Shown here piece by piece: positions 1-62,680 of a stretch of DNA of 64,000 nucleotides; within the stretch, counting starts at the first letter, position 1, and each line of letters opens with the position of its first letter. This DNA is from Mytilisepta virgata. Lineage: Eukaryota > Mollusca > Bivalvia > Mytilida > Mytilidae. A model generated the notes under the pieces. That model was not told where the DNA came from and did not search any database. It worked only from the letters and a program-made list of their open reading frames with translations. A program made the position numbers and the translations under genes. The stretch covers positions 67,626,314 to 67,690,313 of the forward strand of contig CM051521.1 in NCBI GenBank assembly GCA_028015205.1, given 5' to 3'.

Positions 1-81
1 GACACGGGAGGAATCGTGCCATTCGAACGTGGACGAGTGGTGGTAACACTTCACTGCAGAAAAAAGAAGTTTTTAACATGA
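1..81 (+). CDS. C-terminal tail of an upstream ORF in the virus-like element (partial)
   Basis: Frame 1 is open from the first base and stops at TGA 79-81, giving 26 residues that end in a basic tract (CRKKKFLT). The TGA overlaps the ATG of the next gene (ATGA, 78-81), the same tight packing seen at the next two gene junctions, which is the main reason to believe the frame is real. Too little remains to name a family. In related elements the neighbours of the capsid genes are other virion or replication genes, so a structural protein is a guess only. Confidence 0.45.
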   Translation, partial: DTGGIVPFERGRVVVTLHCRKKKFLT

Positions 82-491
82 AAGCACGTCATTGTTGTGA
101 TGCCAAGTCTTACGAAGACTATTATCTTCATCAAGCGGGGAGTGGTTATCCCGTCTATGGGGGAAGTCGATTTCAAAAGGGACACGGATTGGGAAGCGTG
201 TTTGGAGGATTGTTTAAGGCGGCCATGCCGTTACTGAAAAAAGGAGCCAAGACACTGGGTCGCCAAGCGTTGAAAACAGGACTACGCATTGCCGGAGACG
301 CCGTAGAAGGAAAGAATTTGAAACAAGCTGCCAAGTCCAGATTGAAAACGGCAGGCAAAAACATGTTCAAGAAAGCCATCGGGTATGCCGGCCCACCCGG
401 AGAACGAGTTATAAAAAGACCTGCACCCAAGAAACGTATCAGACGTCGTCTGACCAAGCAACGGACCACATCGCAAGACGTTTTCGGATAA
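78..491 (+). CDS. Small basic core/minor-capsid-like protein (pX/pVI-like) of a Polinton/adintovirus-type element
   Basis: 137 residues, strongly basic. After a His/Tyr/Gly-rich N-terminus, residues 35-60 form a Gly-rich hydrophobic segment ([20 protein letters not shown]), followed by Lys/Ala-rich amphipathic helices to about residue 105 and a tail rich in Lys, Arg and Pro. Small proteins with a 'GxGSxFxGLFxxAxPxLKKGAK' look sit beside capsid and protease genes in adintoviruses and related elements and are usually compared with adenovirus pX or pVI, that is, DNA-condensing or membrane-lytic virion proteins. The assignment rests on this composition and on synteny, not on an alignment. The ATG overlaps the previous stop and the TAA (489-491) overlaps the next ATG, so it is probably translated from a polycistronic message. 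The opposite-strand frames here are shadows. Confidence 0.65.
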
Positions 492-1792
492 TGTCACTCG
501 TACATCCACACTCGTGCGAATGCACTAAATCGGAATTGGACTTGTTTGGGGTGCCACCCACCCAGACCAGTGTTGAACACGGATATTGGGAACAGAAAGG
601 TGTGACATCGGCTCTGACGGACCAAGGACCTTACGAATTCGTCGTAAGCGGGGCCGGAGAAGACTACATCGACTTGGCCAACACGTATCTATTCGTAGAG
701 GCACAGATCGTGAAAGCGGACGGAAGCAATTTGGCCAACGATTCGGACGTGGGACCCGTGAATCTATGGATGCATTCGCTCTTTAGCGATGTCAGTGTGA
801 GTCTCAACGAGAAATTGGTGTCCCCGCCCACGAGTGTTTACCCGTATCGGGCCTATATAGAAACTTTGCTCAGCTACGGACCCGGTGCCAAAGAATCTCA
901 ATTGACCGGAGTCATGTGGTACAAAGACACACCCGAACACATAGAGGCTAGAACCGACGACAACGTGGGATTCTCCAGCAGAAAGGCATTGATTGCCGAA
1001 AGCAGACAAGTCCAGATGATGGGAAAACTTCACGTAGACTTATTTTGTCAAGATAAATACTTATTAAATCAAGTTGAACTGAAAATCAAACTGAGGAGGA
1101 GCAGAGACGTCTTTGCTTTGATGGGACATGCCAATGCTTTCAAGGTTAAGATTAGAGATTTAGGTCTATTCGTCAGAAAGGTGCAGTTGAGCCCGGCCAT
1201 TCGCATGGCCCACATCAAAGCTTTGGAAAAAACGAGCAGCAAATACCCCATACGACGGGTGGAAGTCAAAGTGGACACTGTACCTAGAGGAAACACCAAT
1301 TACGTCCAAGACAACATGTTCCTGGGACAGATGCCCAAGCGATTGGTCATAGGCTGTGTAGAAAGCGATGCTTTGAACGGCAACATCACGAAAAACCCGT
1401 TTAACTTTAAACACTTCAAGATAAACTTTGTCGCGCTCAACGTGGACGGAAAACAGATACCCAGCAAACCTCTGCAGCCGGATTTCGGTGGGGAAGGATA
1501 CATTCGAAGTTACATGGGACTCTATACCAGCACCGGAAAGATGTTTCAAGACGAAGGAAACGCCATTTCCAGAGAAGACTTCTCTAAAGGCTACACCTTG
1601 TTTGGCTTCGATTTGACCCCCGACATGTCTGAAGTGGGTACCTTTCAACTGATAAAACAAGGCAACTTACGTTTAGAAATTCATTTTGCCGAAGCACTTC
1701 CTGCTACCATCAACGTGGTTTTGTATGCAGAGTTCGACAACGTCATCGAAATAGACAGAAATAGACAAGTCCTCTTTGATTACAGTGCCTGA
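491..1792 (+). CDS. F54H12.2-family capsid-like protein (candidate major capsid, jelly-roll)
   Basis: 433 residues, beta-rich, no signal peptide and no membrane segment. It resembles the protein family annotated in many invertebrate genomes as 'uncharacterized protein F54H12.2-like', which in nematodes lies in a transposon-derived cluster with an integrase gene. Features that fit a virion jelly-roll protein are the N-terminal '[20 protein letters not shown]' segment, the '[14 protein letters not shown]' strand pair, a '[14 protein letters not shown]' segment and many short beta-type stretches to the end. It lies directly upstream of an adenain-like protease, the usual capsid-protease arrangement of Polintons and adintoviruses. 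The ATG shares its A with the preceding TAA. Whether it is the major (double jelly-roll) or the penton-like protein cannot be decided without structure prediction. The frame is intact, with no stop or shift. Confidence 0.7.
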
Positions 1793-2473: not shown

Positions 2474-2493
2474 GACATGTTGCAACATGTCGT
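2474..2493 (+). promoter_or_regulatory. p53-family-like response element around the palindrome CATGTTGCAACATG
   Basis: Two CATG cores exactly 10 bp apart (2476-2479 and 2486-2489) form a 20-mer that matches the p53/p63/p73 pattern RRRCWWGYYY-RRRCWWGYYY at 17 of 20 positions with no spacer. The central 14 bp (2476-2489) are a perfect palindrome. A weaker relative lies at about 2423-2443. Binding is inferred from pattern only. Confidence 0.35.
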
Positions 2494-2625
2494 GGACGCG
2501 GACCTGATCGTAGACACCCATGGTGCTCTCTATTCCGTCCACGTTCAGGAAAAAATCGAAAATTTTGGTCGACGCGGACCTGAGCGAAGACACCCTTGGT
2601 GTTCTCTTTTACGTCCGCGTTCTGG
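2492..2625 (+). repeat. Two tandem 58-bp promoter repeats (period 76 bp)
   Basis: Units 2492-2549 and 2568-2625 align along their whole length. Both begin GTSGACGCGGACCTGA and end in a CGTTCWGG motif, and about 18 A-rich bases separate them. They sit just upstream of the TATA box of the CARD-PC4 gene, so they probably carry its upstream promoter elements. They also create an open frame (from 2477) that is continuous with the gene but is better read as promoter. Confidence 0.7.
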
Positions 2626-2668: not shown

Positions 2669-3433
2669 ATGCAACCACAACACAGACAAGCCTTGCTCAA
2701 GAATTACGTTCTTTTGGTGAACGAAACGCCGGTAGACGAAGTAGTCGATGTATTGGTACAACGAGGCATAGTGGACGAGGACCAGAGAGAATTCATTTGT
2801 CATCAACCAACCAGGAAGATGCGGACCCGTACCTTACTACAATTACTACCCAGAAGAGGTCCGGATGCATTTAACGGTTTTTGTCACGCCCTGATGGTGA
2901 ATAGGAGGGACGATCTGCTAGGAGTCTTGACAGATCCCGACAAAGAGGACATGGAAATCTGTTTCCCGGAAGAGTCCAGCTTTCATCTGGGAGGCAGCTT
3001 ACACCTGAAGGTTGAAAAGGAGGGAATCACCTTGACTGACGGGAGGATGGAAGTGTATTTCCCACTGTTTCGCTGGATACAACTCCAATATACCTTGGAC
3101 GATATCGACGAGGCCGTTCATTACTTGGAACACAACAGATACGCGTCCCTACACAAACACCTCGGTGGAAACGTGTACGTCACGGCACAGAGTCCGGAAT
3201 TAAAGTTAGACGTTCGCCATTACTCTCTATCGCCTCTGGACGAAGAGCTACATCCGACAGACCAAGGAGTGAGTTTGGATTTTGAACAGTACGAAAAATT
3301 AAAGGAGGTGGACAAAGTCATCCCAGAACTCGTTCCCGAGTTGAGGAAAACCTTACCTTGTGCAGTAACCCACCAGAACGTGGAAAGTGCCATGTTTTGC
3401 AGTGAATGTCAACCAAATGGACCAGACTTATAA
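2669..3433 (+). CDS. CARD - PC4-like - PC4-like protein with Cys/His tail
   Basis: 254 residues from the ATG at 2669; the frame is open back to 2477, but that part overlaps promoter repeats. Residues 1-88 read as a CARD death-fold: 'HRQALLKNYVLLVNE', then 'VVDVLVQRGIVDEDQRE', and 'LLQLLPRRGPDAFNGFCHAL', the hallmark LLDLLPRRGxxAFxxFxxAL helix pair of CARDs. Residues 106-155 (FHLGGSLHLKV... IDEAVHYLE) look like a degenerate PC4 fold. Residues 166-222 are a clearer PC4 core: LGGNVYV, KLDVRHY, 'LHPTDQGVSLDFEQYEKL'. The tail has a C-x3-H ... C-x2-C pattern (CAVTH, CSEC) that could bind zinc. PC4 domains bind single-stranded DNA and act in transcription; CARDs recruit caspases or innate-immune adaptors. 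The combination suggests a viral modulator of host death or sensing, or a DNA-binding signalling protein. Function is inference; domain reading is fairly confident. Confidence 0.75.
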   Translation: MQPQHRQALLKNYVLLVNETPVDEVVDVLVQRGIVDEDQREFICHQPTRKMRTRTLLQLLPRRGPDAFNGFCHALMVNRRDDLLGVLTDPDKEDMEICFPEESSFHLGGSLHLKVEKEGITLTDGRMEVYFPLFRWIQLQYTLDDIDEAVHYLEHNRYASLHKHLGGNVYVTAQSPELKLDVRHYSLSPLDEELHPTDQGVSLDFEQYEKLKEVDKVIPELVPELRKTLPCAVTHQNVESAMFCSECQPNGPDL

Positions 3434-3479
3434 CCAAAAGAAAAAAAAAAAAAAAAAAAATTAGAAAAAAAAAGAAAGT
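3434..3479 (+). repeat. A-rich tract directly after the CARD-PC4 stop codon
   Basis: A-runs broken by single G and by TTAG, starting within ten bases of the TAA at 3431-3433. It mirrors the tract behind the protease gene and, like it, leads straight into TAATGCAGCCT. No separate AATAAA signal is seen. Confidence 0.7.
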
Positions 3480-3555
3480 TAATGCAGCCTGCATTTGAAG
3501 CCATCATAATGGTTTGCTTCGAATGTTGACAGTTGACAGCCTTGTTTAAATGCAG
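3480..3555 (+). promoter_or_regulatory. TAATGCAGCCT ... AATGCAG intergenic motif, copy 2
   Basis: TAATGCAGCCT at 3480-3490 and AATGCAG at 3549-3555 repeat the module of 2326-2370. In this copy the first motif is also a perfect inverted repeat, AATGCAG-C-CTGCATT (3481-3495). Confidence 0.5.
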
Positions 3556-3649
3556 ATCAGCTTTTTTTTGTCTCCCCTTGTATTGTTGGAGGAGATTATG
3601 GGGAAAAGTTATCTCCCCCTTGGAGGAGGTCTCTTTGGACTTCCACCTA

Positions 3650-3930
3650 CACATTCGGGTCCCAGCACGTGACTGACGTCACTTCCGTCAATGGAGAAAA
3701 TCCACTACTTCCGGTTGCACCAACCACTTCCGGTTCCGCCCGAACATGCGCAGACCACACATCCGGGTCCTACCACGTGACTTTCGTCACTTCCGTCAAC
3801 AAATGGCGGAAAAAACACCCTACTTCCGGTTGCGCAAACCACTTCCGGGTACTTCCGGTTCCTGAACATGCGCAGAACACACATCCGGGTCCTAGCACGT
3901 GACTTGCGTCACTTCCGGCAACAAAGGGCG
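3650..3930 (+). promoter_or_regulatory. Tandem array of ETS, E-box, CRE and NRF1-like sites (2.4 units)
   Basis: Units start with CACATCCGGGTCC at 3650 (CACATTCGGGTCC), 3758 and 3880; unit lengths are 108 and 122 bp, and the third is partial. Each has an E-box CACGTG (3666, 3774, 3896), a GTCACTTCCG or TGACGTCA site (the CRE at 3674-3681 is perfect), several ACTTCCGG ETS/GABP sites, and AACATGCGCAGA, an NRF1-like half site. This mix is typical of CpG-rich TATA-less promoters and of viral enhancers. It lies downstream of the CARD-PC4 gene with no gene visible after it, so it could be an enhancer or origin-like region, or a promoter now cut off from its gene. The open frame across it is an artefact of the repeats. 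Confidence 0.65.
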
Positions 3931-4756
3931 GTTGTTGTGATTAATCCAATTATGAAGGTGTGATTACACATATTTAAAAAGATGATAGATGTTAATCCTT
4001 TGTTTAATTGTTGAATATACCAGTACGCCTACATGATTAATTTAATTTAAAATTGAATAATACTTAATGTATATTATATGAGCGAATCATAGCTTTGTAT
4101 AACTTAAACATCAAAATTACAGTATATACACTTTGCTAACAATACAACTTTTTGGCGAAAATTAAACAAACAAAATTGAAAACGGATAGTTTAGTGCACA
4201 GGGGCTCGACTTCTGGATATTTATTTCTTTTTCATTTTATTTTTTGTTGTTGTTTTATTTCATGAGTACTTTTAATAAATATTTACTATTACAACGAATA
4301 TTCTGTGTTTATTATCAATGTGCTATACACTATATCCACGTCCTTATACTAAAAAATCCTAAAGGGATATAAGCCGCCATTTTGGATTTCCTTCCCTTGT
4401 CACGATTAAAATCAATTAAAAATACTTCCATGTTACAATTTATTTCATATCTGCACTCAATCTCCTCCAAAATGAATGATCTTCAAAGTCCAATCATCAT
4501 TTTGGAGGAGATTGAGGGCATTTTTTTTTTGCATCGCCTTATTATTTTAATCTAAACTGTCACCTACTATTTCATAATTTACACTAGATGAGTTTGTAAG
4601 TTCTTATAACAAGGGGCTCCATTACATACTCACTTAGGTCACAAGGACAGGTTTAAAATTTGCCTCAGGTCACTAGATCACTTTTAAGCAAATATGATAG
4701 GTAATGGTTTTGATCATTTTTAAAGGTTATGGGTTATTTTAAATGAGACATCAGGT
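3931..4756. other. AT-rich spacer without genes; junction between virus-like element and surrounding DNA
   Basis: GC content drops sharply here and no coding frame or conserved motif of the left element is seen. The only structure is the hairpin at 4456-4516. No terminal inverted repeat of the virus-like element can be recognised, so its right end is not defined. Confidence 0.5.
4456..4516. repeat. Near-perfect hairpin, 24-25 bp arms, 12-base loop
   Basis: Left arm 4456-4480 (starting CTCAATCTCCTCCAAAATGA) and right arm 4493-4516 are reverse complements apart from one extra A. The loop is 4481-4492. The size resembles a miRNA-type precursor stem, or the end of a small mobile element. A related TTGGAGGAGATT occurs near 3586. 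Confidence 0.7.
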
Positions 4757-15573: not shown

Positions 15574-17703
15574 CTAATCATCCTTCAGACGTAGTGGAAC
15601 TCCTTTAAGGGATATTTTCCAACACAGACTGTCCGTAGAATATGTCCTTGACGCACATGCTGTCTCCATCATTTCTACAAATTCCGTACTATTAGTGTCC
15701 TCCTTCTCCTCTAAGACGATTTCCTTAAGAGTCAAATAATTATACAGTTTGGATTTCATGGCGTATTTGGTGTCCTCTTCTTTCAGTGTCTTGGATCCGG
15801 GAAGTGCAAGGAAATTATACTTTAACAAAAGTTCCTCCTCAGTCATTTGGCTCAATATTCCGGTCGAAAGTTCTAGTGCCATGCTGGCATATTTCCATTG
15901 AAAGAGTTTGTCCTTTGGTGACATAGATTTCCATCCCATGGGGGGCCAAACTATAAGGGTTGGGGCTGTAACTAAAGTCAAAGATGCTTCTTGATCCCAA
16001 TCTCTCCTAGCTGGCGGAAACAATGGCATCCCGCCGATCCCTAGCAGCTTCTCCGCTCTCTGTGGAACAGTTTCCGTGGTCTTTTGAAAAGTCCAGATTT
16101 CGTTTCCTGTGGATTGCTCCATTATGGTCTTGATCTCCTCGTTGGTACGGAGGGATTTCTCGATCTCGGCCCTCAAGTGGTCTCCTCCAGACAGCTGGTG
16201 TGTTTCTAACGTCGCTTCTCCTGATGGTACTCTTTCCAGCAGGTCTGCCTCCTCTCTGATGCTCCGTTCGATTTCCCTTATCGCTATGGCGGCCCTTTCC
16301 TGTTCATCCTCTCGTTTCTTTTCCTCCTCATCCCTCTTACGCTTCCTGTCCTCTTGTTCTTTCCTTTCTTCCTCCTTCTTCCGTTGCAGTTCTTCCTCAT
16401 CCTTCCGTCGTTTCCTCTCCTCTTCCTCACGCTTCCTGTCCTCCTGTTCCTTCCTTTCCTCCTCCTCCTTCTTACGCTTTCGCTCCTCCTGTTGTTGCAG
16501 GTCTTTCTCCCTTCTTCTTTCGATTTCTTTCCTTTTATCCTCCTCCTTACGTTTTTGATCCTCGTCTTTCCCGATATCTCGCTGTTTCCTTTCGTCCTCT
16601 TCCTTCCGTATATTTTCCTTTATTTCTTTTAAGATTTCCCGTTGTTCCTTCGGTTGCTCCTTTGTCTGTTTTGCCTTGAGTTTCGACTTCTGTTTGGTCT
16701 TCTCTCTACCCTTGTGTTTGTGCTTCTTTTTACTGACAACTCCTTCTTTTTCGTCCGTCATCGACATCTTTCTTTTCTGTAAGGCCCCGCCGGCTGGCCT
16801 GTTTACTGGTGCCTCCTCCTCATCTAGGGTGATAGAGTTGGTGGATGGTGTCTGTAGCGGCGACATCGGTACCGGTACTGAGTTGGCGGAAGATTTTGAA
16901 TGGAAGATTTCCTCCTCTGTTGAATATATTTCGGCGATCAGGTGGGGAGGAATTGTTAACTTCCTGGCAACGATTGGTGTAATGGTGTCTAGGATGTCCC
17001 CGGTTACCACAGAACTAAACGGTCGATGGACCTGATACGGCTTTCCTCCGAACGCTATGAGACGTCTGGTGAGTGCCTCCATACTTCTGCCATCCTGCAT
17101 TACTTCGTCCCGGACCTTCACCCTAAAGTCCCTGGTGGTCACACTTAGGTCCAAATTGAAAGTACATGTTGTTTGTCCTAGTCCAAGAGTAACAGCCTTA
17201 AGGTCTAGGCCTTCATATAGAGTTGGTCTTGTAGGAGAGTAAATGGGCGGTGGAACATCCCTCTTCTGGTCTTCCGGGGTTCCCTCCATCAGTTTCTTCT
17301 CACACTTCCACCCTTCCGTCCATTCCTGTTTCGTCCTGGTTGTGGCCTTTACCCTTTCCAGGAAGTCGATGACCTCTATCCTAGCCTTGATTGCCTGCAC
17401 TGATTTCTCATCTGAAGGCTGGACGACCCTGGCATACATGGAGGGGTTGTTGGCAAACCAAAAACCGTTGTTCTCAGTGAGGAAGGAGTTGGGCATTAGT
17501 TCCATCTTAAACCTATGATTCTGCAGGATGTGGTCCTTCAAGTCGCATATCCGTCTGAATGACTTCTCCTCGTCGCACCAAACACAGATTACCGACAGCA
17601 TGGAGTGGGGCAGGGCAGCTAGGTGGTTTTTCAGGCCTCGTCTGTCCCGGAATGTGGCTGGGCACAACATACACTTGAGCTCAATCATCGAAGGTGGTCT
17701 CAT
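15574..17703 (-). CDS. Third ORF of the Gypsy element: two C2H2 fingers plus long charged coiled coil
   Basis: 709 residues if it starts at ATG 17703 (the frame is open from 17751). A strong splice acceptor CTTATTCTTGCAG ends at 17705, one base before the ATG, so it is probably made from a spliced subgenomic RNA, as env is in Gypsy. Numbered from 17751: zinc finger 1 uses C27, C30, H43 and H49; finger 2 uses C56, C59, H74 and H79. Residues about 330-545 are an extreme Lys/Glu/Arg coiled coil with repeated 'RKREEEERKR' blocks. The last ~170 residues are globular (PLFPPARRDWDQEA, LTLVTAPTLIVWPPMGW). No signal peptide or membrane span, so not an envelope. The family is unknown to me. The frame is fully intact in a young element, which implies selection until recently. 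A nuclear or nucleocapsid-binding role is a guess. The Ser/Phe-rich + strand frames opposite are shadows of the coiled coil. Confidence 0.75.
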   Translation of the reverse strand: MRPPSMIELKCMLCPATFRDRRGLKNHLAALPHSMLSVICVWCDEEKSFRRICDLKDHILQNHRFKMELMPNSFLTENNGFWFANNPSMYARVVQPSDEKSVQAIKARIEVIDFLERVKATTRTKQEWTEGWKCEKKLMEGTPEDQKRDVPPPIYSPTRPTLYEGLDLKAVTLGLGQTTCTFNLDLSVTTRDFRVKVRDEVMQDGRSMEALTRRLIAFGGKPYQVHRPFSSVVTGDILDTITPIVARKLTIPPHLIAEIYSTEEEIFHSKSSANSVPVPMSPLQTPSTNSITLDEEEAPVNRPAGGALQKRKMSMTDEKEGVVSKKKHKHKGREKTKQKSKLKAKQTKEQPKEQREILKEIKENIRKEEDERKQRDIGKDEDQKRKEEDKRKEIERRREKDLQQQEERKRKKEEEERKEQEDRKREEEERKRRKDEEELQRKKEEERKEQEDRKRKRDEEEKKREDEQERAAIAIREIERSIREEADLLERVPSGEATLETHQLSGGDHLRAEIEKSLRTNEEIKTIMEQSTGNEIWTFQKTTETVPQRAEKLLGIGGMPLFPPARRDWDQEASLTLVTAPTLIVWPPMGWKSMSPKDKLFQWKYASMALELSTGILSQMTEEELLLKYNFLALPGSKTLKEEDTKYAMKSKLYNYLTLKEIVLEEKEDTNSTEFVEMMETACASRTYSTDSLCWKISLKGVPLRLKDD

Positions 17704-17751
17704 CCTGCAAGAATAAGGTATAATATAGTCCTCCACCAAATGAGTATGCAT

Positions 17752-18303: not shown

Positions 18304-21300
18304 CTAGATTGGTTCTGTAAACCAAGTAGGTGGGCTCTTTCCTCGATACGGCAGCAACCTGTCGATATGATAGACTTTAGCTAGTGCCTTTTTGCTTCTC
18401 TTTACTAAGTAAGTGACATCATCAATTTGTTTTATGACAATAAATGGTCCTTTCCACTTGGACGTTAATTTATGGCAAACTCCAACTTTTCTTGGATTGT
18501 CGTATAACCAGACGGCTTGTCCTCTCTTGAATCTGCGTTTCGTTGATTTCAGATCGTAATGTTTCTTTTGATAATCGGAATTTTTCTTTAACTGTTTACG
18601 GGCCACCTCATGTGCTCTGTTCATCTTGTTCCTTAAATTAGCAATGTAGTCGGTTTCCGTTTCCAAAATATCTTCCTCCGAGACAGACTCCTCAGGTCTT
18701 GGTATTACGGCTTCCATGGGAAGTGTAATGTTCCTGCCGAGCATCATTTTATTCGGCGTTTGTCCAGTGCTTGCATGAATTGAGGACCGATAGGCCATTA
18801 ACAGTTGTGGCAGACATTCATCACATCGATCTTGATTGTCCTCACAGTATATGGTGAGCATACATGCCAGAGTCCTATTGAATCTTTCTACATTTCCATT
18901 GGCTTGGGGTCGCATACTTGTAGTCCGTGTTTTGTCAATGTGAAGAAAGTCACAAAGTTCCTGAAATAGTTTTGACTCAAAGGACCGACCTTGGTCCGAA
19001 TGTAATTGCAATGGGGTACCAAATCTACATATAAATTCATTAACAATCTTGGTTGATATCGTCGAGGATTCCTGATCGGGAATAGCATATGCCTCCGTCC
19101 ACTTTGTGAAACAGTCACATAATACTAGGATGTATTGATTTCCCGACCTAGTTTTTGGCAATGGTCCCAGAATGTCTACGGCCACTTTTTCCATGGGCTC
19201 CCCTACCAAGTACTGTCCCAGGGGTGCTCTGTTAGCCTGTGGTTTTGCTGGCTTCCTGGCAGCACAACGGTCACACTGTTCACAGTACAAGGATATCGAT
19301 TCTTTCATGTTTGGCCAATAGAAAGTCTGTTGAATTCTGCTGGTCATTTTTTCAGCTCCAAGATGTCCCGCCGATGGGATATCATGATAGTAGTGACAAA
19401 TTTCCTCCCGGCAACTGACTGGAACAACAAATTGTAACATGGTATCCTGACCCTCATTGTAATAAAATTTTCTGTAAAGTAATTTGTTTCTGATAGTCAA
19501 CCTATCCCATTGTCTCCAAAGTGTTTTCAAAGTGGATGTCCCACTGGATACTTGGTCCCATTTTGGTTTCCCCATTCCATCCTCTAAGTGTGTTAATACA
19601 ATCGCCATATCAGAATCTTCCAATTGTTTCTGTCTTAGCTGGTCTGGTTCCCAGCCGGTTAAAACGAGTCCGCTAGGAGTAATATCATCCGGACCTGGTC
19701 CTTGACTTCGAGTGCATACCCGTATGGTGACCTTTTCCTCCAACTCATGGTCACTCAGTTTGTCCTCGTCTACTTCCTCGTCACTGGGATGGTTTCCACT
19801 TTCCTGCTTTTCACAGGATCTACAAGGTCGACGCGATAATGCATCAGCGTTGGAATGGCTCCTTCCTGACCTATGGGTTACCGTCAGATTATGGGTCTCC
19901 AATTCTTGTAACCATCTGGCTGTTTGTCCAGTCGGTTTCTTAAGGTTTTTCATCCAGGATACCGCCGCGTTGTCAGTGCGCAGGTGCACTTCTTGACCAT
20001 ACAAGTATGGATGGAACTTCCGGACAGCAGAAATCACGGCGAGTAATTCTTTCCTAGTTATACAGTACGCTTGTTCGTGGACATTCATCGCCTTACTCAT
20101 ATAGGCTATCACCCTCTCGGTTCCCTCCTGCAATTGCGAAAGTACCGCTCCCACGGCAAGGTCACTGGCGTCCGTATCCAGGATGAAGACTTTCCCGGGC
20201 TCTGGATAGGCGAGTATTGGAGTGGATGTCAATGCAGATTTTAATTTATCAAATGACTGCTGGCAATCATCATTCCATACGAATTTGGTGTTTTTCTCGC
20301 AGACTTTATGTAAGGGTCGAGCATGGTCGGCGAACGATTTTACGAACCGCCTGTAATAGGAAGCAAGTCCCAGAAATGACCTTACCTGTTTGGCAGTTCG
20401 GGGTACTGGCCAGTCTTGGACGGCATTTGTTTTGTCTGGATCCGTAGATATTCCTTGTTCTGAAACTATATGTCCGAGGAACTTTACCTCTTTTTGAAAA
20501 AATATACATTTGGTGGGTTTTAATTTTAAATTTGCATCCCGAAGGCGCTGAAATACTCTTTCGAGCCGTTCGATTCCTTCCTGAAAAGTTTTGGCGACTG
20601 AGATGATGTCATCTACATATAATAAAAGTTCTTCCCATTGTAGACCTCTCAAGACATTCTCCATGAGCCGTTCAAAAGTTGAAGGTGAATTTACCAACCC
20701 GAAGGGCATAACTGTAAATTGGTATAATCCCATGCTAGTGAGAAAAGCAGTTTTATCCTTGTCTTCTGGAGCCATGCCAATTTGCCAGAATCCACTATTC
20801 AGATCCATGGATCCAAACCACTTTGATCCCGACAAGGCGTCGAGGCAGTCATCAACACGCGGAAGTGGATAACTGTCGACTACCGACTTTGAGTTGACGA
20901 GCCTATAATCTACTGCGAATCGCACATTCCCATCCTTTTTCTGCACCATTACGATGTTAGAGGCCCAAGGGCTCTTGGAGGGCTCTATAATCCCACGTTG
21001 TAACATCTTTTCTACTTCCCGTTTCTCAACTTCCCGTTTGCCAATGGGCATGCGCCTTGGCCGTTGCCGGATTGGTATGCTATTTCCCGTATTGATCTTG
21101 TGAGTCACTAAGGTTGTCCTTCCTATGTCTTCCGGTGTTTTGGAAAATACGTCCTGATATTCCTGTAATAAGGCTGCTAACTGGTTGCCTTGATCCTTTG
21201 TTAAATACTTAGAACTCCTTTCCAACAGATCCACCAAATGTTCTGGTGTGTATGCGTCCTCCTTTCCCTCGCTTGCTGACCTTATCATATTAATGGTTTG

Positions 21301-22080
21301 TGGGTATTGGTCTCCCTCCTTATCCATGTATGACTCGCATGTTCCTATGGTCTGCTTCCGATATAAAGTAGCTTCCTCCTCACTACAATTAACTAGGTTA
21401 ATGTGTATAGTTTCCTGTGTTGTATCTATTATTCCTGGTACAAGTACTATAGATTCCTTTAATGTACCGTTATCCTCAAAGTACCCAAAGTTCGTGAGGT
21501 GCTCTGCTCCAGGTATGTCCACTTCCACCATAGTGCTACTAAGAGGTGATATTTTCTGTGTGTCCTTGACCTCTATTCTACATATCATTCTGGCTTGTCC
21601 TCCAAGCCAACATTGAATTTCCCTGTTGTCATTTGTGACTATCCTCATTTGTTTATAATTAATCTTGCGTATCTCTGCCAGCAGAAAATCTTGGCCTATA
21701 ATGCCATCCTGCTTTATATCACAAACTAAAAATTGGTGTTTGAAAACTTCCCTTCCCATACAAAAATTAATTGTAACTGCTCCTATTGTGTTTACTTTGT
21801 TTCCATTTACATCATGTATATCCGATTTGCATTCCTCCAATAAACTTTGTATATCCCTAGGCAGTTTACCGAAAATATGTAAAGATAATATGGTTGCAGT
21901 TGATCCACTGTCAAACAAGAAGTTGACAGGGGTATTTTCAATTGACCCTCGTGTATAAAATCCATTGTCCCAGTTATCATCAATTTCTCCAATATGTCCA
22001 GTTCTAACTTCATTGTTTTCCTTAAAATTTGGCCTCTCCTCGACTGCTGGCTCCCGGCCTACTGAGACAGCTTTCTCCCG
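18304..22080 (-). CDS. Gypsy pol polyprotein: protease, reverse transcriptase, RNase H, integrase (complete copy)
   Basis: The stretch from the protease motif is 1204 residues (21918 down to a TAG at 18306). The frame is open upstream across the end of gag (to about 22080) with no usable ATG, so pol is made by a -1 frameshift. Numbered from 21918: aspartic protease DSGS at 3-6; reverse transcriptase with 'FGSMDLNSGFWQI', 'FTVMPFGLVNSPSTF' and the catalytic YVDD near 434-437; RNase H with 'FILDTDASDLAVGAVLSQ' near 578, 'TRKELLAVI' and 'LRTDNAAVSWM'; integrase HHCC zinc finger near 841 ('HYYHDIPSAGH' ... 'CEQCDRC'); DDE core starting 'VDILGPLPKTRSG' with 'LHSDQGRSFES' and 'MRPQANGNVERFN'; C-terminal GPY/F module 'WKGPFIVIKQ'. 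Domain order is Ty3/Gypsy. No break is visible. Confidence 0.95.
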   Translation of the reverse strand, partial: REKAVSVGREPAVEERPNFKENNEVRTGHIGEIDDNWDNGFYTRGSIENTPVNFLFDSGSTATILSLHIFGKLPRDIQSLLEECKSDIHDVNGNKVNTIGAVTINFCMGREVFKHQFLVCDIKQDGIIGQDFLLAEIRKINYKQMRIVTNDNREIQCWLGGQARMICRIEVKDTQKISPLSSTMVEVDIPGAEHLTNFGYFEDNGTLKESIVLVPGIIDTTQETIHINLVNCSEEEATLYRKQTIGTCESYMDKEGDQYPQTINMIRSASEGKEDAYTPEHLVDLLERSSKYLTKDQGNQLAALLQEYQDVFSKTPEDIGRTTLVTHKINTGNSIPIRQRPRRMPIGKREVEKREVEKMLQRGIIEPSKSPWASNIVMVQKKDGNVRFAVDYRLVNSKSVVDSYPLPRVDDCLDALSGSKWFGSMDLNSGFWQIGMAPEDKDKTAFLTSMGLYQFTVMPFGLVNSPSTFERLMENVLRGLQWEELLLYVDDIISVAKTFQEGIERLERVFQRLRDANLKLKPTKCIFFQKEVKFLGHIVSEQGISTDPDKTNAVQDWPVPRTAKQVRSFLGLASYYRRFVKSFADHARPLHKVCEKNTKFVWNDDCQQSFDKLKSALTSTPILAYPEPGKVFILDTDASDLAVGAVLSQLQEGTERVIAYMSKAMNVHEQAYCITRKELLAVISAVRKFHPYLYGQEVHLRTDNAAVSWMKNLKKPTGQTARWLQELETHNLTVTHRSGRSHSNADALSRRPCRSCEKQESGNHPSDEEVDEDKLSDHELEEKVTIRVCTRSQGPGPDDITPSGLVLTGWEPDQLRQKQLEDSDMAIVLTHLEDGMGKPKWDQVSSGTSTLKTLWRQWDRLTIRNKLLYRKFYYNEGQDTMLQFVVPVSCREEICHYYHDIPSAGHLGAEKMTSRIQQTFYWPNMKESISLYCEQCDRCAARKPAKPQANRAPLGQYLVGEPMEKVAVDILGPLPKTRSGNQYILVLCDCFTKWTEAYAIPDQESSTISTKIVNEFICRFGTPLQLHSDQGRSFESKLFQELCDFLHIDKTRTTSMRPQANGNVERFNRTLACMLTIYCEDNQDRCDECLPQLLMAYRSSIHASTGQTPNKMMLGRNITLPMEAVIPRPEESVSEEDILETETDYIANLRNKMNRAHEVARKQLKKNSDYQKKHYDLKSTKRRFKRGQAVWLYDNPRKVGVCHKLTSKWKGPFIVIKQIDDVTYLVKRSKKALAKVYHIDRLLPYRGKSPPTWFTEPI

Positions 22081-23132
22081 TTTCCCTGGTTCCTTGAGGC
22101 ATTGTTGTGCTGGTTCCTTTGAAAGTAGGGTTCTCTCCTCTGGTCATTCCGGTCAAAGTTTGATCCATTCCTATATTGTTTATGCCTGTTGTGGGGACAG
22201 TCTCTTATAATATGTTCCGTGGAGTTACATTTGTAACACCTTGTTTCCGACGGATTCCTCCTTTGCTCCATGGCTGCCTTTTCCATCTCTAGTTTTTCTA
22301 TCCTTTTCTCCAAGCTTTTGATATCCTCCTTCTCATCTTTTTGGTATTCCTCTCTTTCCTTTTTCGTATCCATTGCTCTCACTGTGTTCCTTTTCTTATC
22401 TCCATCCCCAACTACCGATTCATAACGTTCAATTACATCTACTGCCTCTGCAACAGTCCTGCATTCCTTGTCGATGCAGTGATATTTCATTTCTGCAGGA
22501 ACGGTCTTAAATAACTGGGCTAGTGCCAGTGCTTCTTGTGCATCTATATCCAGATTAGAGTAAGCTTTCTGAGTTAGCTGTCTGATATCGTCTCCTAATT
22601 CTGCAATACTTTCGCCAGGCATTCTTTTGCGCATTTCCAGTTTCGACTGCCACTTATAGTTATTCCTAGTACTTCCAAATCTCTGTGCCAACTTCTGTAC
22701 TAGCAAGGCATATGACCCCTTGTCCCGTCTCGTAAGACTCATATAAAATGTTCTAGCCTGTCCTCTTAGGCTGGCAGCAAGAAAAAGTAACCTGGTCCGA
22801 TGGTCCCATAAGCCCAACTCTGCACAATCCTCGAAATGTGACAGGTATTCTTCCCAGCAGTCTTTGCCATAATATGGTTCTGGTTTCAGAATCATATTCA
22901 TCTGATTAGCTACGGGCATATTAAAGTCATCTCCTCCATCATGTCTACCACGAGGGTCACCCCGATCCATCCTTGGTCTCCTCCCTAATCCATTGACATT
23001 TCTATCCCGCTCCTCTTCTTCCGTGTCTCCATCATATTGGTCATGATTGTCACGTACAATTACGTCCCTATCAGCCTGTCTGCGGTCAATATTAAATTCT
23101 ATTTCTGAGTCAGGGGAGGGTGCTCTGGCCAT
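22059..23132 (-). CDS. Gypsy gag (complete copy 1)
   Basis: 357 residues from a true ATG. It has an acidic/Arg-rich N-terminus, a retrotransposon-gag capsid region around residues 80-230 (YYGKDCWEEYLSHFED ... LFLAASLRGQARTFY), a charged helix near 255-290 and a single CCHC zinc knuckle near residue 300 (CYKCNSTEHIIRDC). It assembles the cytoplasmic particle and binds the genomic RNA. The C-terminus is Asn/Arg-rich and ends NQGNGRKLSQ, where pol continues in the -1 frame. It is identical in length to the copy at 26233-27306. Confidence 0.95.
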   Translation of the reverse strand: MARAPSPDSEIEFNIDRRQADRDVIVRDNHDQYDGDTEEEERDRNVNGLGRRPRMDRGDPRGRHDGGDDFNMPVANQMNMILKPEPYYGKDCWEEYLSHFEDCAELGLWDHRTRLLFLAASLRGQARTFYMSLTRRDKGSYALLVQKLAQRFGSTRNNYKWQSKLEMRKRMPGESIAELGDDIRQLTQKAYSNLDIDAQEALALAQLFKTVPAEMKYHCIDKECRTVAEAVDVIERYESVVGDGDKKRNTVRAMDTKKEREEYQKDEKEDIKSLEKRIEKLEMEKAAMEQRRNPSETRCYKCNSTEHIIRDCPHNRHKQYRNGSNFDRNDQRREPYFQRNQHNNASRNQGNGRKLSQ

Positions 23133-23273
23133 CTTATCTTTAATTTCTATAAAGTTTAATAAAGAATTTCATACATGCTACTGAAATTCCTCGTTTACAC
23201 GGACGCACGATTATCCCTCACGTCGGTCGTTTATTATTTAAGTTTATTCTTATTCATGTGTTTCATTCGTGTT

Positions 23274-23274
<1 letters not shown>

Positions 23275-23319
<45 letters not shown>
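23275..23319 (-). repeat. 45-nt poly(A) in the retrotransposon leader, copy 1
   Basis: A run of 45 T on the + strand, that is, poly(A) in the sense RNA between the primer site and the gag ATG. The second unit has 48 at 27449-27496. Exact length is uncertain in any assembly. Confidence 0.8.
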
Positions 23320-23322
<3 letters not shown>

Positions 23323-23390
23323 CTAATATCTGAACGGTTATATCGGACATTACTTGGTTCGTATCACTGGATGCCAATTAGAATTTTGAC

Positions 23391-23408
23391 ATCCCACCGC
23401 TGCCACCA
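23391..23408 (-). promoter_or_regulatory. Primer-binding site for tRNA-Leu, inner copy
   Basis: Sense strand TGGTGGCAGCGGTGGGAT is the exact complement of the 3' end of the metazoan tRNA-Leu whose acceptor side reads ATCCCACCGCTGCCA plus CCA. It begins 5 bases after the LTR 3' end. Confidence 0.85.
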
Positions 23409-23413
23409 AAAAT

Positions 23414-23702
23414 TGTAAGCTACCCGTGAGTGCCTGTCCGTAACACCCACCGATAGTTCACAGTTTGTATCCTTCCATTACAAGAAAGATTGTTAATACA
23501 TATCCACCATATAAGACCGTGTTAGTCTATGAACGTGACTCTCCTTTACCATAGGTATAAAAATATAAATTCCCCAACTGATAATTCATATACCTTAACT
23601 TCATGCAATAAGGACCCTGAGTAGACCTCAGTAATTGTAACTGTTACTCAAAGACGATGAGTTATTTGCTAGCTTATATATATTTCCTTTAGGAGCTCTG
23701 CT
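23414..23702 (-). repeat. 289-bp LTR fragment (3' end of the LTR) inside the composite element
   Basis: Identical in layout to 13324-13612 and 27591-27879. It breaks after 'aggagctctgct' and is followed by about 8 bases of filler (ctgtggga) before pol sequence resumes at 23711 (equivalent to 19537). In sense it is the last 289 bp of an LTR attached to the PBS. Confidence 0.9.
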
Positions 23703-23710
23703 CTGTGGGA

Positions 23711-26254
23711 TGTCCCACTGGATACTTGGTCCCATTTTGGTTTCCCCATTCCATCCTCTAAGTGTGTTAATACAATCGCCATATCAGAATCTTCCAATTG
23801 TTTCTGTCTTAGCTGGTCTGGTTCCCAGCCGGTTAAAACGAGTCCGCTAGGAGTAATATCATCCGGACCTGGTCCTTGACTTCGAGTGCATACCCGTATG
23901 GTGACCTTTTCCTCCAACTCATGGTCACTCAGTTTGTCCTCGTCTACTTCCTCGTCACTGGGATGGTTTCCACTTTCCTGCTTTTCACAGGATCTACAAG
24001 GTCGACGCGATAATGCATCAGCGTTGGAATGGCTCCTTCCTGACCTATGGGTTACCGTCAGATTATGGGTCTCCAATTCTTGTAACCATCTGGCTGTTTG
24101 TCCAGTCGGTTTCTTAAGGTTTTTCATCCAGGATACCGCCGCGTTGTCAGTGCGCAGGTGCACTTCTTGACCATACAAGTATGGATGGAACTTCCGGACA
24201 GCAGAAATCACGGCGAGTAATTCTTTCCTAGTTATACAGTACGCTTGTTCGTGGACATTCATCGCCTTACTCATATAGGCTATCACCCTCTCGGTTCCCT
24301 CCTGCAATTGCGAAAGTACCGCTCCCACGGCAAGGTCACTGGCGTCCGTATCCAGGATGAAGACTTTCCCGGGCTCTGGATAGGCGAGTATTGGAGTGGA
24401 TGTCAATGCAGATTTTAATTTATCAAATGACTGCTGGCAATCATCATTCCATACGAATTTGGTGTTTTTCTCGCAGACTTTATGTAAGGGTCGAGCATGG
24501 TCGGCGAACGATTTTACGAACCGCCTGTAATAGGAAGCAAGTCCCAGAAATGACCTTACCTGTTTGGCAGTTCGGGGTACTGGCCAGTCTTGGACGGCAT
24601 TTGTTTTGTCTGGATCCGTAGATATTCCTTGTTCTGAAACTATATGTCCGAGGAACTTTACCTCTTTTTGAAAAAATATACATTTGGTGGGTTTTAATTT
24701 TAAATTTGCATCCCGAAGGCGCTGAAATACTCTTTCGAGCCGTTCGATTCCTTCCTGAAAAGTTTTGGCGACTGAGATGATGTCATCTACATATAATAAA
24801 AGTTCTTCCCATTGTAGACCTCTCAAGACATTCTCCATGAGCCGTTCAAAAGTTGAAGGTGAATTTACCAACCCGAAGGGCATAACTGTAAATTGGTATA
24901 ATCCCATGCTAGTGAGAAAAGCAGTTTTATCCTTGTCTTCTGGAGCCATGCCAATTTGCCAGAATCCACTATTCAGATCCATGGATCCAAACCACTTTGA
25001 TCCCGACAAGGCGTCGAGGCAGTCATCAACACGCGGAAGTGGATAACTGTCGACTACCGACTTTGAGTTGACGAGCCTATAATCTACTGCGAATCGCACA
25101 TTCCCATCCTTTTTCTGCACCATTACGATGTTAGAGGCCCAAGGGCTCTTGGAGGGCTCTATAATCCCACGTTGTAACATCTTTTCTACTTCCCGTTTCT
25201 CAACTTCCCGTTTGCCAATGGGCATGCGCCTTGGCCGTTGCCGGATTGGTATGCTATTTCCCGTATTGATCTTGTGAGTCACTAAGGTTGTCCTTCCTAT
25301 GTCTTCCGGTGTTTTGGAAAATACGTCCTGATATTCCTGTAATAAGGCTGCTAACTGGTTGCCTTGATCCTTTGTTAAATACTTAGAACTCCTTTCCAAC
25401 AGATCCACCAAATGTTCTGGTGTGTATGCGTCCTCCTTTCCCTCGCTTGCTGACCTTATCATATTAATGGTTTGTGGGTATTGGTCTCCCTCCTTATCCA
25501 TGTATGACTCGCATGTTCCTATGGTCTGCTTCCGATATAAAGTAGCTTCCTCCTCACTACAATTAACTAGGTTAATGTGTATAGTTTCCTGTGTTGTATC
25601 TATTATTCCTGGTACAACTACTATAGATTCCTTTAATGTACCGTTATCCTCAAAGTACCCAAAGTTCGTGAGGTGCTCTGCTCCAGGTATGTCCACTTCC
25701 ACCATAGTGCTACTAAGAGGTGATATTTTCTGTGTGTCCTTGACCTCTATTCTACATATCATTCTGGCTTGTCCTCCAAGCCAACATTGAATTTCCCTGT
25801 TGTCATTTGTGACTATCCTCATTTGTTTATAATTAATCTTGCGTATCTCTGCCAGCAGAAAATCTTGGCCTATAATGCCATCCTGCTTTATATCACAAAC
25901 TAAAAATTGGTGTTTGAAAACTTCCCTTCCCATACAAAAATTAATTGTAACTGCTCCTATTGTGTTTACTTTGTTTCCATTTACATCATGTATATCCGAT
26001 TTGCATTCCTCCAATAAACTTTGTATATCCCTAGGCAGTTTACCGAAAATATGTAAAGATAATATGGTTGCAGTTGATCCACTGTCAAGCAAGAAGTTGA
26101 CAGGGGTATTTTCAATTGACCCTCGTGTATAAAATCCATTGTCCCAGTTATCATCAATTTCTCCAATATGTCCAGTTCTAACTTCATTGTTTTCCTTAAA
26201 ATTTGGCCTCTCCTCGACTGCTGGCTCCCGGCCTACTGAGACAGCTTTCTCCCG
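23711..26254 (-). pseudogene. Truncated Gypsy pol (protease, RT, RNase H only)
   Basis: Same sequence as the complete pol (about two substitutions, for example MFDSGS/MLDSGS and ESIVLV/ESIVVV) up to 'DQVSSGTS'. The frame then runs into LTR sequence (HRAELLKEIYIS) and stops at 23669. The integrase and C-terminal GPY/F module are gone. YVDD and RNase H residues are intact, so it could still yield active reverse transcriptase but not integrate on its own. It starts by the same -1 frameshift at the end of the outer gag. Confidence 0.92.
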
Positions 26255-27306
26255 TTTCCCTGGTTCCTTGAGGCATTGTTGTGCTGGTTCCTTTGAAAGT
26301 AGGGTTCTCTCCTCTGGTCATTCCGGTCAAAGTTTGATCCATTCCTATATTGTTTATGCCTGTTGTGGGGACAGTCTCTTATAATATGTTCCGTGGAGTT
26401 ACATTTGTAACACCTTGTTTCCGACGGATTCCTCCTTTGCTCCATGGCTGCCTTTTCCATCTCTAGTTTTTCTATCCTTTTCTCCAAGCTTTTGATATCC
26501 TCCTTCTCATCTTTTTGGTATTCCTCTCTTTCCTTTTTCGTATCCATTGCTCTCACTGTGTTCCTTTTCTTATCTCCATCCCCAACTACCGATTCATAAC
26601 GTTCAATTACATCTACTGCCTCTGCAACAGTCCTGCATTCCTTGTCGATGCAGTGATATTTCATTTCTGCAGGAACGGTCTTAAATAACTGGGCTAGTGC
26701 CAGTGCTTCTTGTGCATCTATATCCAGATTAGAGTAAGCTTTCTGAGTTAGCTGTCTGATATCGTCTCCTAATTCTGCAATACTTTCGCCAGGCATTCTT
26801 TTGCGCATTTCCAGTTTCGACTGCCACTTATAGTTATTCCTAGTACTTCCAAATCTCTGTGCCAACTTCTGTACTAGCAAGGCATATGACCCCTTGTCCC
26901 GTCTCGTAAGACTCATATAAAATGTTCTAGCCTGTCCTCTTAGGCTGGCAGCAAGAAAAAGTAACCTGGTCCGATGGTCCCATAAGCCCAACTCTGCACA
27001 ATCCTCGAAATGTGACAGGTATTCTTCCCAGCAGTCTTTGCCATAATATGGTTCTGGTTTCAGAATCATATTCATCTGATTAGCTACGGGCATATTAAAG
27101 TCATCTCCTCCATCATGTCTACCACGAGGGTCACCCCGATCCATCCTTGGTCTCCTCCCTAATCCATTGACATTTCTATCCCGCTCCTCTTCTTCCGTGT
27201 CTCCATCATATTGGTCATGATTGTCACGTACAATTACGTCCCTATCAGCCTGTCTGCGGTCAATATTAAATTCTATTTCTGAGTCAGGGGAGGGTGCTCT
27301 GGCCAT
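26233..27306 (-). CDS. Gypsy gag (complete copy 2, outer unit)
   Basis: 357 residues, with the same protein sequence as the inner gag in every part compared, including the CCHC knuckle and C-terminus. It is closest to the 5' LTR, so in a transcript from that LTR this copy would be the first translated, followed by the truncated pol. Confidence 0.95.
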   Translation of the reverse strand: MARAPSPDSEIEFNIDRRQADRDVIVRDNHDQYDGDTEEEERDRNVNGLGRRPRMDRGDPRGRHDGGDDFNMPVANQMNMILKPEPYYGKDCWEEYLSHFEDCAELGLWDHRTRLLFLAASLRGQARTFYMSLTRRDKGSYALLVQKLAQRFGSTRNNYKWQSKLEMRKRMPGESIAELGDDIRQLTQKAYSNLDIDAQEALALAQLFKTVPAEMKYHCIDKECRTVAEAVDVIERYESVVGDGDKKRNTVRAMDTKKEREEYQKDEKEDIKSLEKRIEKLEMEKAAMEQRRNPSETRCYKCNSTEHIIRDCPHNRHKQYRNGSNFDRNDQRREPYFQRNQHNNASRNQGNGRKLSQ

Positions 27307-60987: not shown

Positions 60988-62300
60988 TTAAAATCTTTTA
61001 GTTGAAGTAACATAATCGAATACGGACTGGAAATTATTTCCGGATAAAATGTATTTAAGCTGGAAGTTATTAACTCCAACTTTAATTAAATTATCAGTCA
61101 TAGTTTGTCTTTCTTTGTTAAATTTGCTACAGTTTAATATAAAGTGTTCTACTGATTCTGGTTGATTGTAGTGTGGACACGTATCAGAATCTTTTATACC
61201 AATTTTATTCAGATATTTATTTAAACCGATGTAACGATTTCTTAACCGAAATAATAATATCTCTTTAAACCTTGGTAGCCTTGGTGTATTAATATTAAAA
61301 TTAACACTATTACATATAGAATATAGTTGTCTACCCTTTTTATTATCATCCCACTCTTTTTGCCACATGTTTTTAAGTAACTTGCGACACAATGTTTTAA
61401 TATCCTCTTTATACATAGGAACAGTAACAAAAATATTATCTAGTTTTAATGCATTTTTGGCCTCAGTATCAGCTAATTCATTACCTAGGATACCAACATG
61501 ACTTGGTATCCATTCTAGTAAAATTTTAACACCAGTTTTTGCTAGAGCTGTATAAATATGATAAATGTCATAAATAATTTGACTTTTTACTTGATATATA
61601 GGGGTTCTAATTGCCTGTAAGGCTGACAGGGAGTCTACAAATATAGCAACATTATCAGGTCTAAAATCCTGTATCCAGCATAGTGCTAGAAAAATTGCAG
61701 TAAGTTCTGCTATGAAAAGAGATACGTGATTTTGTAGCTTGAAGCCTTTTTTAATTTTTAACTCTGGTATAACAAAAGCACAACTACTAGTATTTGTATC
61801 TGGTTCCTTAGACCCATCAGTATATATCTTTAGAATATTATTACACTGAGTATCTATTAATATATTTCCTTCATTTTTAATTAAGTGAGGCATGTCTTTC
61901 TGAGTAACAATATCATGTAACTTTGTATGAATTTCAGGTTTGAGTAAATGCCAAGGGGGTGTTGGACATACTGAGTACTTATAGACATTGTTTGTGTCAA
62001 AATTATTTACTGTAACTACACTATTTGCAACACAGTAGTATGGTTGTTTCTTTTTATCTATATTCTTTTCATAGTATTTGAACATAAAGTCACTCTGCAA
62101 GGTATGTTTGGCAGGGTGTGAATTATCAAAACTTAAAATATTGAAATAAGATTTTGCAATTAGGCTTTTTCTTCTAAGTTCATATGGTGGGTCGCCCATT
62201 TCTACCTGTAGACTGGAAAGAGAAGCAGATTTCATAGAACCTGTGCAAAGCCTCAATGCTTGCAATTGAATAGTATCTAGTATTTTTTTTAACTGCATAG
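60988..62300 (-). pseudogene. Non-LTR ORF2 C-terminal part: RNase H domain and Cys/His tail
   Basis: RNase H with all catalytic carboxylates: 'IYTDGSKEPDTN' (D), 'LFIAELTAIFLAL' (E), 'IFVDSLSALQAI' (D), and 'HVGILGNELADTEAK' (H, D). The tail 'DTCPHYNQPESVEHFILNC' matches the usual C-x2-C-x(n)-E-x2-H-x4-C motif, but the second Cys is Tyr. The upstream join to the thumb region (62180-62680) needs a one-base shift at the T-run 62283-62290. Confidence 0.8.
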
Positions 62301-62680
62301 GAAGCTGAGTTGTATATCTCACATCCATAATCTATTTTTGACTTAATTAATGCAAAATACATATTGCGTAAAGTGTGACTATTGGCCCCCCAGTTTGTGT
62401 CAGTAAGTAATTTCATGCAATTCAATACTTTAGTACATTTAGTTTGTATATATTGGATATGTTTTAGCCATGTTAGTTGGCTATCGAATATAATTCCCAG
62501 AAATTTGACTTCTTTGACTATATCTAAGACATGTGAACCCAATTTAAGTACAAGATTATCAATTTTTTTCTTTCTAGAGAAAATAACACGTACAGTTTTT
62601 GTTGGGGATATAAGGAAGCCCCATGTATTACACCACTTACTAAGATTATTTAAATCCTCTTGTATCTTTTTTGTAGAAAA
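62180..62680 (-). pseudogene. Non-LTR ORF2 thumb/connection segment, separated by frameshifts
   Basis: 'EVKFLGIIFDSQLTWLKHI' is the conserved block that follows the FADD motif in these reverse transcriptases, and 'KSKIDYGCEIYNSA' is the next one. It is in a different frame from both flanking parts. The shifts fall at homopolymers (T-run near 62668-62673 and near 62283), so sequencing error is a possible cause. Confidence 0.75.

Follow-up and report, generated by a model that had tools for sequence, protein, structure and literature searches.

Closest described systems

Adintoviruses are known to have proteins named MOSUB, and CARD (caspase recruitment domain) proteins are known from viruses too, such as the iridovirus vCARDs and herpesvirus E10. 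To our knowledge, the viral CARD proteins described so far are all from viruses of vertebrates. One of them, GIV-CARD, is according to its description (PMC4457926) a CARD-only protein of 91 amino acids, which resembles ICEBERG and caspase-1 and inhibits apoptosis. Here we show that a gene in a 64,000-nucleotide stretch of the genome of the bivalve Mytilisepta virgata (contig CM051521.1, positions 67,626,314 to 67,690,313; called the window) encodes a protein in which a CARD is followed by two PC4-type units and a Cys/His tail, next to the capsid and protease genes of a virus-like element. We propose, as a tentative reading which may well hold, that this protein has an accessory role in an adintovirus/Polinton-type element: its apoptosome-class CARD, fused to a MOSUB-type tandem-PC4 protein, would act as a decoy that blocks apoptosome assembly.

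The top two viral structural matches to the AlphaFold2 model of the protein, in the viral structure library BFVD, were MOSUB proteins (A0A5H3CIS2 of Branchiostoma lancelet adintovirus and A0A5H3CT48 of Bos-associated insect adintovirus). They matched the whole model with E-values of 3.0e-5 and 4.9e-4 over 183 and 138 alignment columns, at template modelling (TM) scores of 0.38-0.54, and going by their name and length they would align to its PC4 half. The name MOSUB presumably derives from the fungal PC4 protein MoSub1, which was also found by the PC4 family profile. Both MOSUB proteins are shorter than the window protein (203 and 197 vs 254 amino acids) and were compared with it by predicted fold. 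A virus-borne CARD fold is shared with the viral CARD proteins; those named among the structural matches, from Cod iridovirus, Lymphocystis disease virus 3 and equid herpesviruses (E 0.002-0.006 to the whole model), are all from viruses of vertebrates. Unlike GIV-CARD, the window protein is not CARD-only, as its PC4 units follow the CARD, which is itself nearer to those of RAIDD, CED-3 and Apaf-1. Sheet-helix units and the PC4 sequence profile are shared with PC4/Sub1 and PUR-alpha, the intramolecular pairing being like that of PUR-alpha repeats I-II; unlike PC4/Sub1, however, the window protein has two PC4 units per chain and a fused CARD, and its clade has lost the basic loop pair. An uncharacterised protein of Ostrea edulis (LOC130049568, P0234) and the other oyster-type proteins also have a CARD and two PC4 stretches, but form a clade of their own (support 100/100 in the PC4 tree), keep the basic loops and have a longer linker. 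No description of a CARD-PC4 fusion was found in the open-licence PubMed Central literature, nor anything there pairing Polinton with caspase recruitment domain, nor anything on F54H12.2, and none of the papers listed under the name MOSUB dealt with viruses; a term search of PMC11071296 and PMC11071308 gave 0 occurrences each of CARD and PC4.

The gene and its CARD half

The gene, its parts and its upstream repeats are as follows.

2669..3433, plus strand: CARD-PC4-PC4-Cys/His protein P0001, 254 amino acids (translation, Pfam, 33 relatives, AlphaFold2 model)
2675..2938, plus strand: CARD, all-helical death fold, residues 3-90
2972..3130, plus strand: first PC4-type unit, residues 102-154, degenerate in sequence (ββββ-α in the model; relatives with two PC4 stretches)
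3146..3331, plus strand: second PC4-type unit, residues 160-221 (PF02229; ββββ-α in the model; PDB profile match)
3359..3409, plus strand: Cys/His tail C231, H235, C244, C247, a possible zinc site (conservation; model confidence low there)
2492..2625, plus strand: two 58-nucleotide direct repeats (84%), directly 5' of a TATA-like run at 2627-2634

The 254-codon frame at 2669-3433 is open throughout, as an earlier sequence-only reading of this DNA had it, and the opposite strand carries numerous stops. A second in-frame ATG lies further 5', at 2477; the start at 2669 is favoured because relatives share the Met there (19/21 rows in a 31-row alignment). The same reading gave the gene its own promoter, with which the TATA-like run and the upstream repeats are consistent, although TATA-like words are common in this region (21 matches in the first 8 kb). 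Chance origin of the frame was ruled out by the agreement of E-values, fold match and intact relatives.

Residues 6-77 matched Pfam family PF00619 (CARD) with an E-value of 9.3e-11 and 42 bits (cut-off 23.9), and the AlphaFold2 model of the 254-residue protein (mean predicted local distance difference test score 84.9, predicted TM score 0.56) showed a six-helix death fold in this region together with two PC4 sheet-helix units further on. Thus both the CARD proposed for the N-terminal ~88 residues and the structure expected of the whole protein were borne out. To class the CARD, a profile built from eight family CARDs (seven window-type, one oyster-type) was run against solved chains. RAIDD (5.9e-12), CED-3 (1.1e-11), the designed CARD 7vty (1.5e-11) and Apaf-1 (9e-11) came top, followed by CARD8 (7e-8), Dronc (3e-7) and caspase-9 (3e-6), with NOD1 and cIAP1 adjoining caspase-9; BCL10, NLRC4, RIP2, caspase-1, ICEBERG and MDA5 were weaker. 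By profile score the window CARD is therefore nearest to the apoptosome/PIDDosome CARDs, though not exclusively.

Since this apoptosome-nearest CARD comes without a protease domain, the simplest role for it is that of a decoy, like the CARD-only protein of grouper iridovirus (PMC4457926). The CARD would bind host apoptosome or initiator-caspase CARDs (Apaf-1-, RAIDD-, CED-3- or Dronc-like), the binding would block productive assembly, and the infected or element-expressing cell would live longer. The partner of the CARD, its inhibitory sense and what the PC4 pair and the Cys/His tail do are our inferences.

The PC4 half and the Cys/His tail

The PC4 core expected near the C-terminus was found at residues 179-213, where PF02229 matched with an E-value of 3.3e-5 and 23.7 bits in the whole protein, under the cut-off of 25, and with 25.1 bits when the C-terminal part was scanned alone. 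A profile for the second unit also matched human PC4 in the PDB (E 1.5e-5). The first copy had no Pfam match, but the degenerate copy suspected there was recovered as a predicted ββββ-α unit, and relatives P0234 and P0225 have two PC4 stretches each (E ~1e-15). In the model the two units are paired within one chain. The PDB fold comparison was dominated by CARD rows, so that the PC4 half was only thinly tested there. The Cys/His tail noticed earlier was also upheld: its four residues, spaced C231-x3-H235...C244-x2-C247, were invariant in the 8 near-full-length members, while in the wider 31-row alignment H235 was present in 19/20 and C244 in 21/23 rows, and C231 and C247 each in less than 90%. 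The C-terminal Cys pattern was likewise invariant in the 11 rows of another alignment and present in 7/8 oyster-type rows, P0234 stopping short of it. The paired PC4 units may form a PC4-like (PUR-alpha-like) platform for stability and localisation, with canonical single-strand DNA binding probably much reduced in the window clade.

In human PC4, the loop preceding the last strand is GRKG (PDB alignments); its basic pair and the Trp of DIREYW are what we take to be the single-stranded DNA contacts. These positions were compared in 35 rows chosen from the 55 in the alignment. The basic pair [RK]K was present in 4/4 CARD-less sisters, 7/7 oyster-type rows and 8/11 other rows, but in 0/13 rows of the window clade, where P0009 has a single Arg. 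The window protein also has Ser at the Trp position of the DIREYW strand, and its copy 1 is equally without the motif. Arg persists in the DIR/DVR strand of 11/13 window-clade rows, so some nucleic-acid binding may remain. The isoelectric point of the PC4 half is 4.6-6.6 in the window clade and spans 4.75-9.86 in the others; because some of the latter are also acidic, charge alone was not used as an argument.

These data bear on the rival closest to the 'DNA-sensing decoy' of the sequence-only reading, namely that the PC4 pair binds single-stranded viral DNA, such as replication intermediates, and that the CARD either masks this DNA from host death-fold adaptors or concentrates them on it. PC4 membership by profile, the MOSUB fold matches, the retained strand Arg and the oyster-type rows, in which both PC4 copies, where shown, retain the basic pair of the loop, speak for it. 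Yet with the pair gone in all 13 window-clade rows, Ser in place of Trp and no motif in copy 1, a DNA-sensing role of the window protein is doubted, and we regard such tethering as doubtful but worth keeping in view.

Relatives and tree

The protein search (E ≤ 10) returned 33 database proteins related to P0001, all at 2.8e-13 or better. Among the 31 members aligned (the window protein in; P0029, P0032 and P0034 out), a CARD match was present in 24 and a PC4 match in 19 (E ≤ 0.1); the missing matches are partly due to truncation, as several members are fragments. Searching with a profile from five PC4 parts brought up 112 proteins (E ≤ 0.001), of which 92 were beyond the first 33. CARD and PC4 were both annotated by Pfam in 11 of these 125 relatives (6 from the protein search and 5 more from the PC4 profile), including the uncharacterised Ostrea edulis protein. 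Hence the earlier statement that no described protein has this architecture holds as far as the searched literature goes, but the architecture is not confined to the window.

Among the sequences examined, a CARD occurs in the window-type and in an oyster-type of ~300 amino acids, represented in Ostrea edulis by P0234, while P0033, P0160, P0170 and P0205 are forms without it. The term 'CARD-less' is secure for just three of these, P0033, P0160 and P0170, whose start Met lies shortly 5' of PC4, and even there an upstream CARD exon may exist; P0166, counted as CARD-less, has no start Met. P0190 has an N-terminal zinc-knuckle-like stretch (zf-CCHC, E 0.00087, slightly under the cut-off), P0193 is similar by eye, and P0186 has a zinc-finger-like insert scoring under the cut-off. 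As these three carry zinc-knuckle- or zinc-finger-like pieces and not a CARD, the accessory part of the tandem-PC4 family seems exchangeable.

For the tree, 55 of 126 proteins (the window protein and 125 relatives) were chosen by completeness and 6 near-copies or fragments removed, leaving 49 PC4 parts. The window CARD clade (14 rows, support 100/100) grouped with five CARD-less rows (97/94). The oyster clade was separate (9 rows, 100/100), with CARD annotated in 5/9; P0214 and P0216 begin within the CARD stretch and P0217 begins beyond it. A topology forcing the two CARD clades together was not rejected (p-AU 0.244), and several 'CARD-less' rows are uncertain; two CARD captures are therefore not claimed.

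The CARD-less tandem-PC4 neighbours P0033, P0160 and P0170 presumably perform the core job of the family, and CARDs are known to self-assemble. Both points favour a second rival, that the protein is a viral replication or transcription cofactor whose CARD only lets it assemble with itself into oligomers or filaments and plays no part in host cell death. We consider this unlikely, as the CARD is not an arbitrary one but nearest to those of the apoptosome and PIDDosome.

The virus-like element around the gene

The remaining features of the element are listed below.

78..491, plus strand: basic, glycine-rich open reading frame (ORF), 137 amino acids, virion-core-like by inference (homologues in loci L001-L004; no Pfam family above cut-off)
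491..1792, plus strand: F54H12.2-like double-jelly-roll major capsid protein, 433 amino acids
1792..2244, plus strand: adenain-like cysteine protease, 150 amino acids (sub-threshold Pfam and synteny)
3649..3931, no strand: repeat array with 3 CACGTG, 5 CACTTCCG and 2 CATGCGC words

Of the genes proposed as neighbours, the capsid was confirmed by its double-jelly-roll fold, and the adenain-like protease was supported by synteny and a Peptidase_C5 match below the cut-off (E 0.0031, 17.7 bits vs 21.3); its homologue in L002 (39% identity) is itself slightly under the cut-off (20.9 vs 21.3). No PolB and no chromodomain rve integrase of the element was found among the long ORFs of the window, the rve at 18307-21759 belonging to a Gypsy-type ORF, although both PolB and an rve integrase with chromodomain are present in the syntenic locus L002.

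The array at 3649-3931 holds all 3 CACGTG words of the window (4.7 expected per 64 kb) and 5/6 plus-strand CACTTCCG copies (0.34 expected per 64 kb, first-order model), and GC content drops from 0.55 in the bin 3601-3900 to 0.29 in the bin 3901-4200. The array probably marks the right edge of the element, where it may serve as enhancer or terminal region. The CARD-PC4 gene lies between the protease and this likely edge and has the base composition of the element. Past the end of the protease gene (2245-2371) stands an A-rich tract with TAATGCAGCCT and TAAATGCAGA behind it; the arrangement recurs 3' of the CARD-PC4 gene (3436-3556), and 25 nucleotides of it are 96% identical 3' of the protease in L001 (11779-11803). 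It resembles a gene-end module present in duplicate, as would be expected if the CARD-PC4 gene were an added cassette. The single words are weak: TAATGCAGCCT (≤1 mismatch) has 2 copies, a number reached in 22/100 shuffles, and AAATGCAGA has 4 copies, reached in 1/100. RNA folding of the two modules was not significant (z -0.79 and -0.75).

A capsid-alignment search of genome contigs gave four loci, L001-L004. None of the four carried a CARD-PC4 gene, either by tblastn with eight PC4-type queries including the window protein (E ≤ 0.01) or by tandem-PC4 and CARD hidden Markov models (E ≤ 1), which does not support the idea that the gene and the capsid and protease always stand together. The absence is weak evidence: the capsid match is fragmented in L001, L003 and L004, which makes these copies look decayed, and sequence extends 10 kb past the capsid in L001 and 5.5 kb in L003, but L002 and L004 end less than 1.5 kb away. 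The gene is at least not universal among such elements. L004 has a PolB-like frame near the capsid (by eye). The four loci lie in bacterial metagenome-assembled genome records (Thiodubiliella, Escarpia endosymbiont, Breoghania); they are animal virus-like and presumably host or other contamination. Scans of viral contigs with P0001, A2, the oyster-type A6 and the PC4-type A7 found no locus, the patterns being so few and short that silence says little; the same applies to the short peptide patterns with which no locus was found for A2 in genome contigs or for the capsid in viral contigs.

A domesticated host sensor, in which bivalves took over the PC4 pair and the CARD so that foreign DNA sets off cell death or immunity, is very unlikely: Ostrea edulis does annotate such a protein and the oyster-type rows keep their basic loops, but the window gene lies between the protease and the likely edge of the element, shares its base composition and belongs to a clade with weakened DNA motifs.

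Elsewhere in the window, a Gypsy-type retrotransposon (18304-27306, minus strand) has reverse transcriptase, RNase H and integrase domains by Pfam, with a second copy of its proteins at 23669-27306 that is near-identical by eye and shorter at one end. ORFs for reverse transcriptase and RNase H at 60988-63459 (minus strand) probably belong to a non-long-terminal-repeat element. A 725-amino-acid ORF at 15574-17751 (minus strand) matches C2H2 zinc fingers below threshold and has a long middle part rich in Lys, Glu and Arg.

What the fused protein may mean

Several points weigh against a decoy borne by an adintovirus/Polinton-type element. With TM scores of 0.38-0.54, the fold matches to MOSUB are modest, and they come without a stated aligned range; the type of the element rests on synteny, because its PolB and integrase are not in the window; and the four capsid loci lack the gene. 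The strand Arg persists in most of the window clade, which acidity alone does not set apart. The CARD class is not exclusive either, as CARD8 outscores Dronc and caspase-9, and NOD1 and cIAP1 stand beside the latter; nor are inhibitor and activator separable by CARD similarity.

Relatives of the fused protein elsewhere suggest that such elements use CARD-PC4 proteins against host cell death. A wider scenario, which we think rather doubtful, is that bivalve adintovirus-type elements have put an apoptosome-class CARD onto a tandem-PC4 MOSUB-type protein at least two times, so that a protein that bound DNA became a death-fold effector; the window lineage would then have a scaffolded CARD decoy without the DNA-binding loop, and the oyster lineage CARDs placed on DNA. 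If true, viruses would have their own version, assembled the other way round, of the death-fold receptors that sense DNA. The presence, in Polinton-type elements of invertebrates, of a protein that joins a CARD to a nucleic-acid fold would provide a way into the questions of how such elements cope with host cell death and whether apoptosome-type CARD signalling protects molluscs from them; it also offers, inside one family, a switch from binding DNA to acting as a death-fold effector that can be tested.
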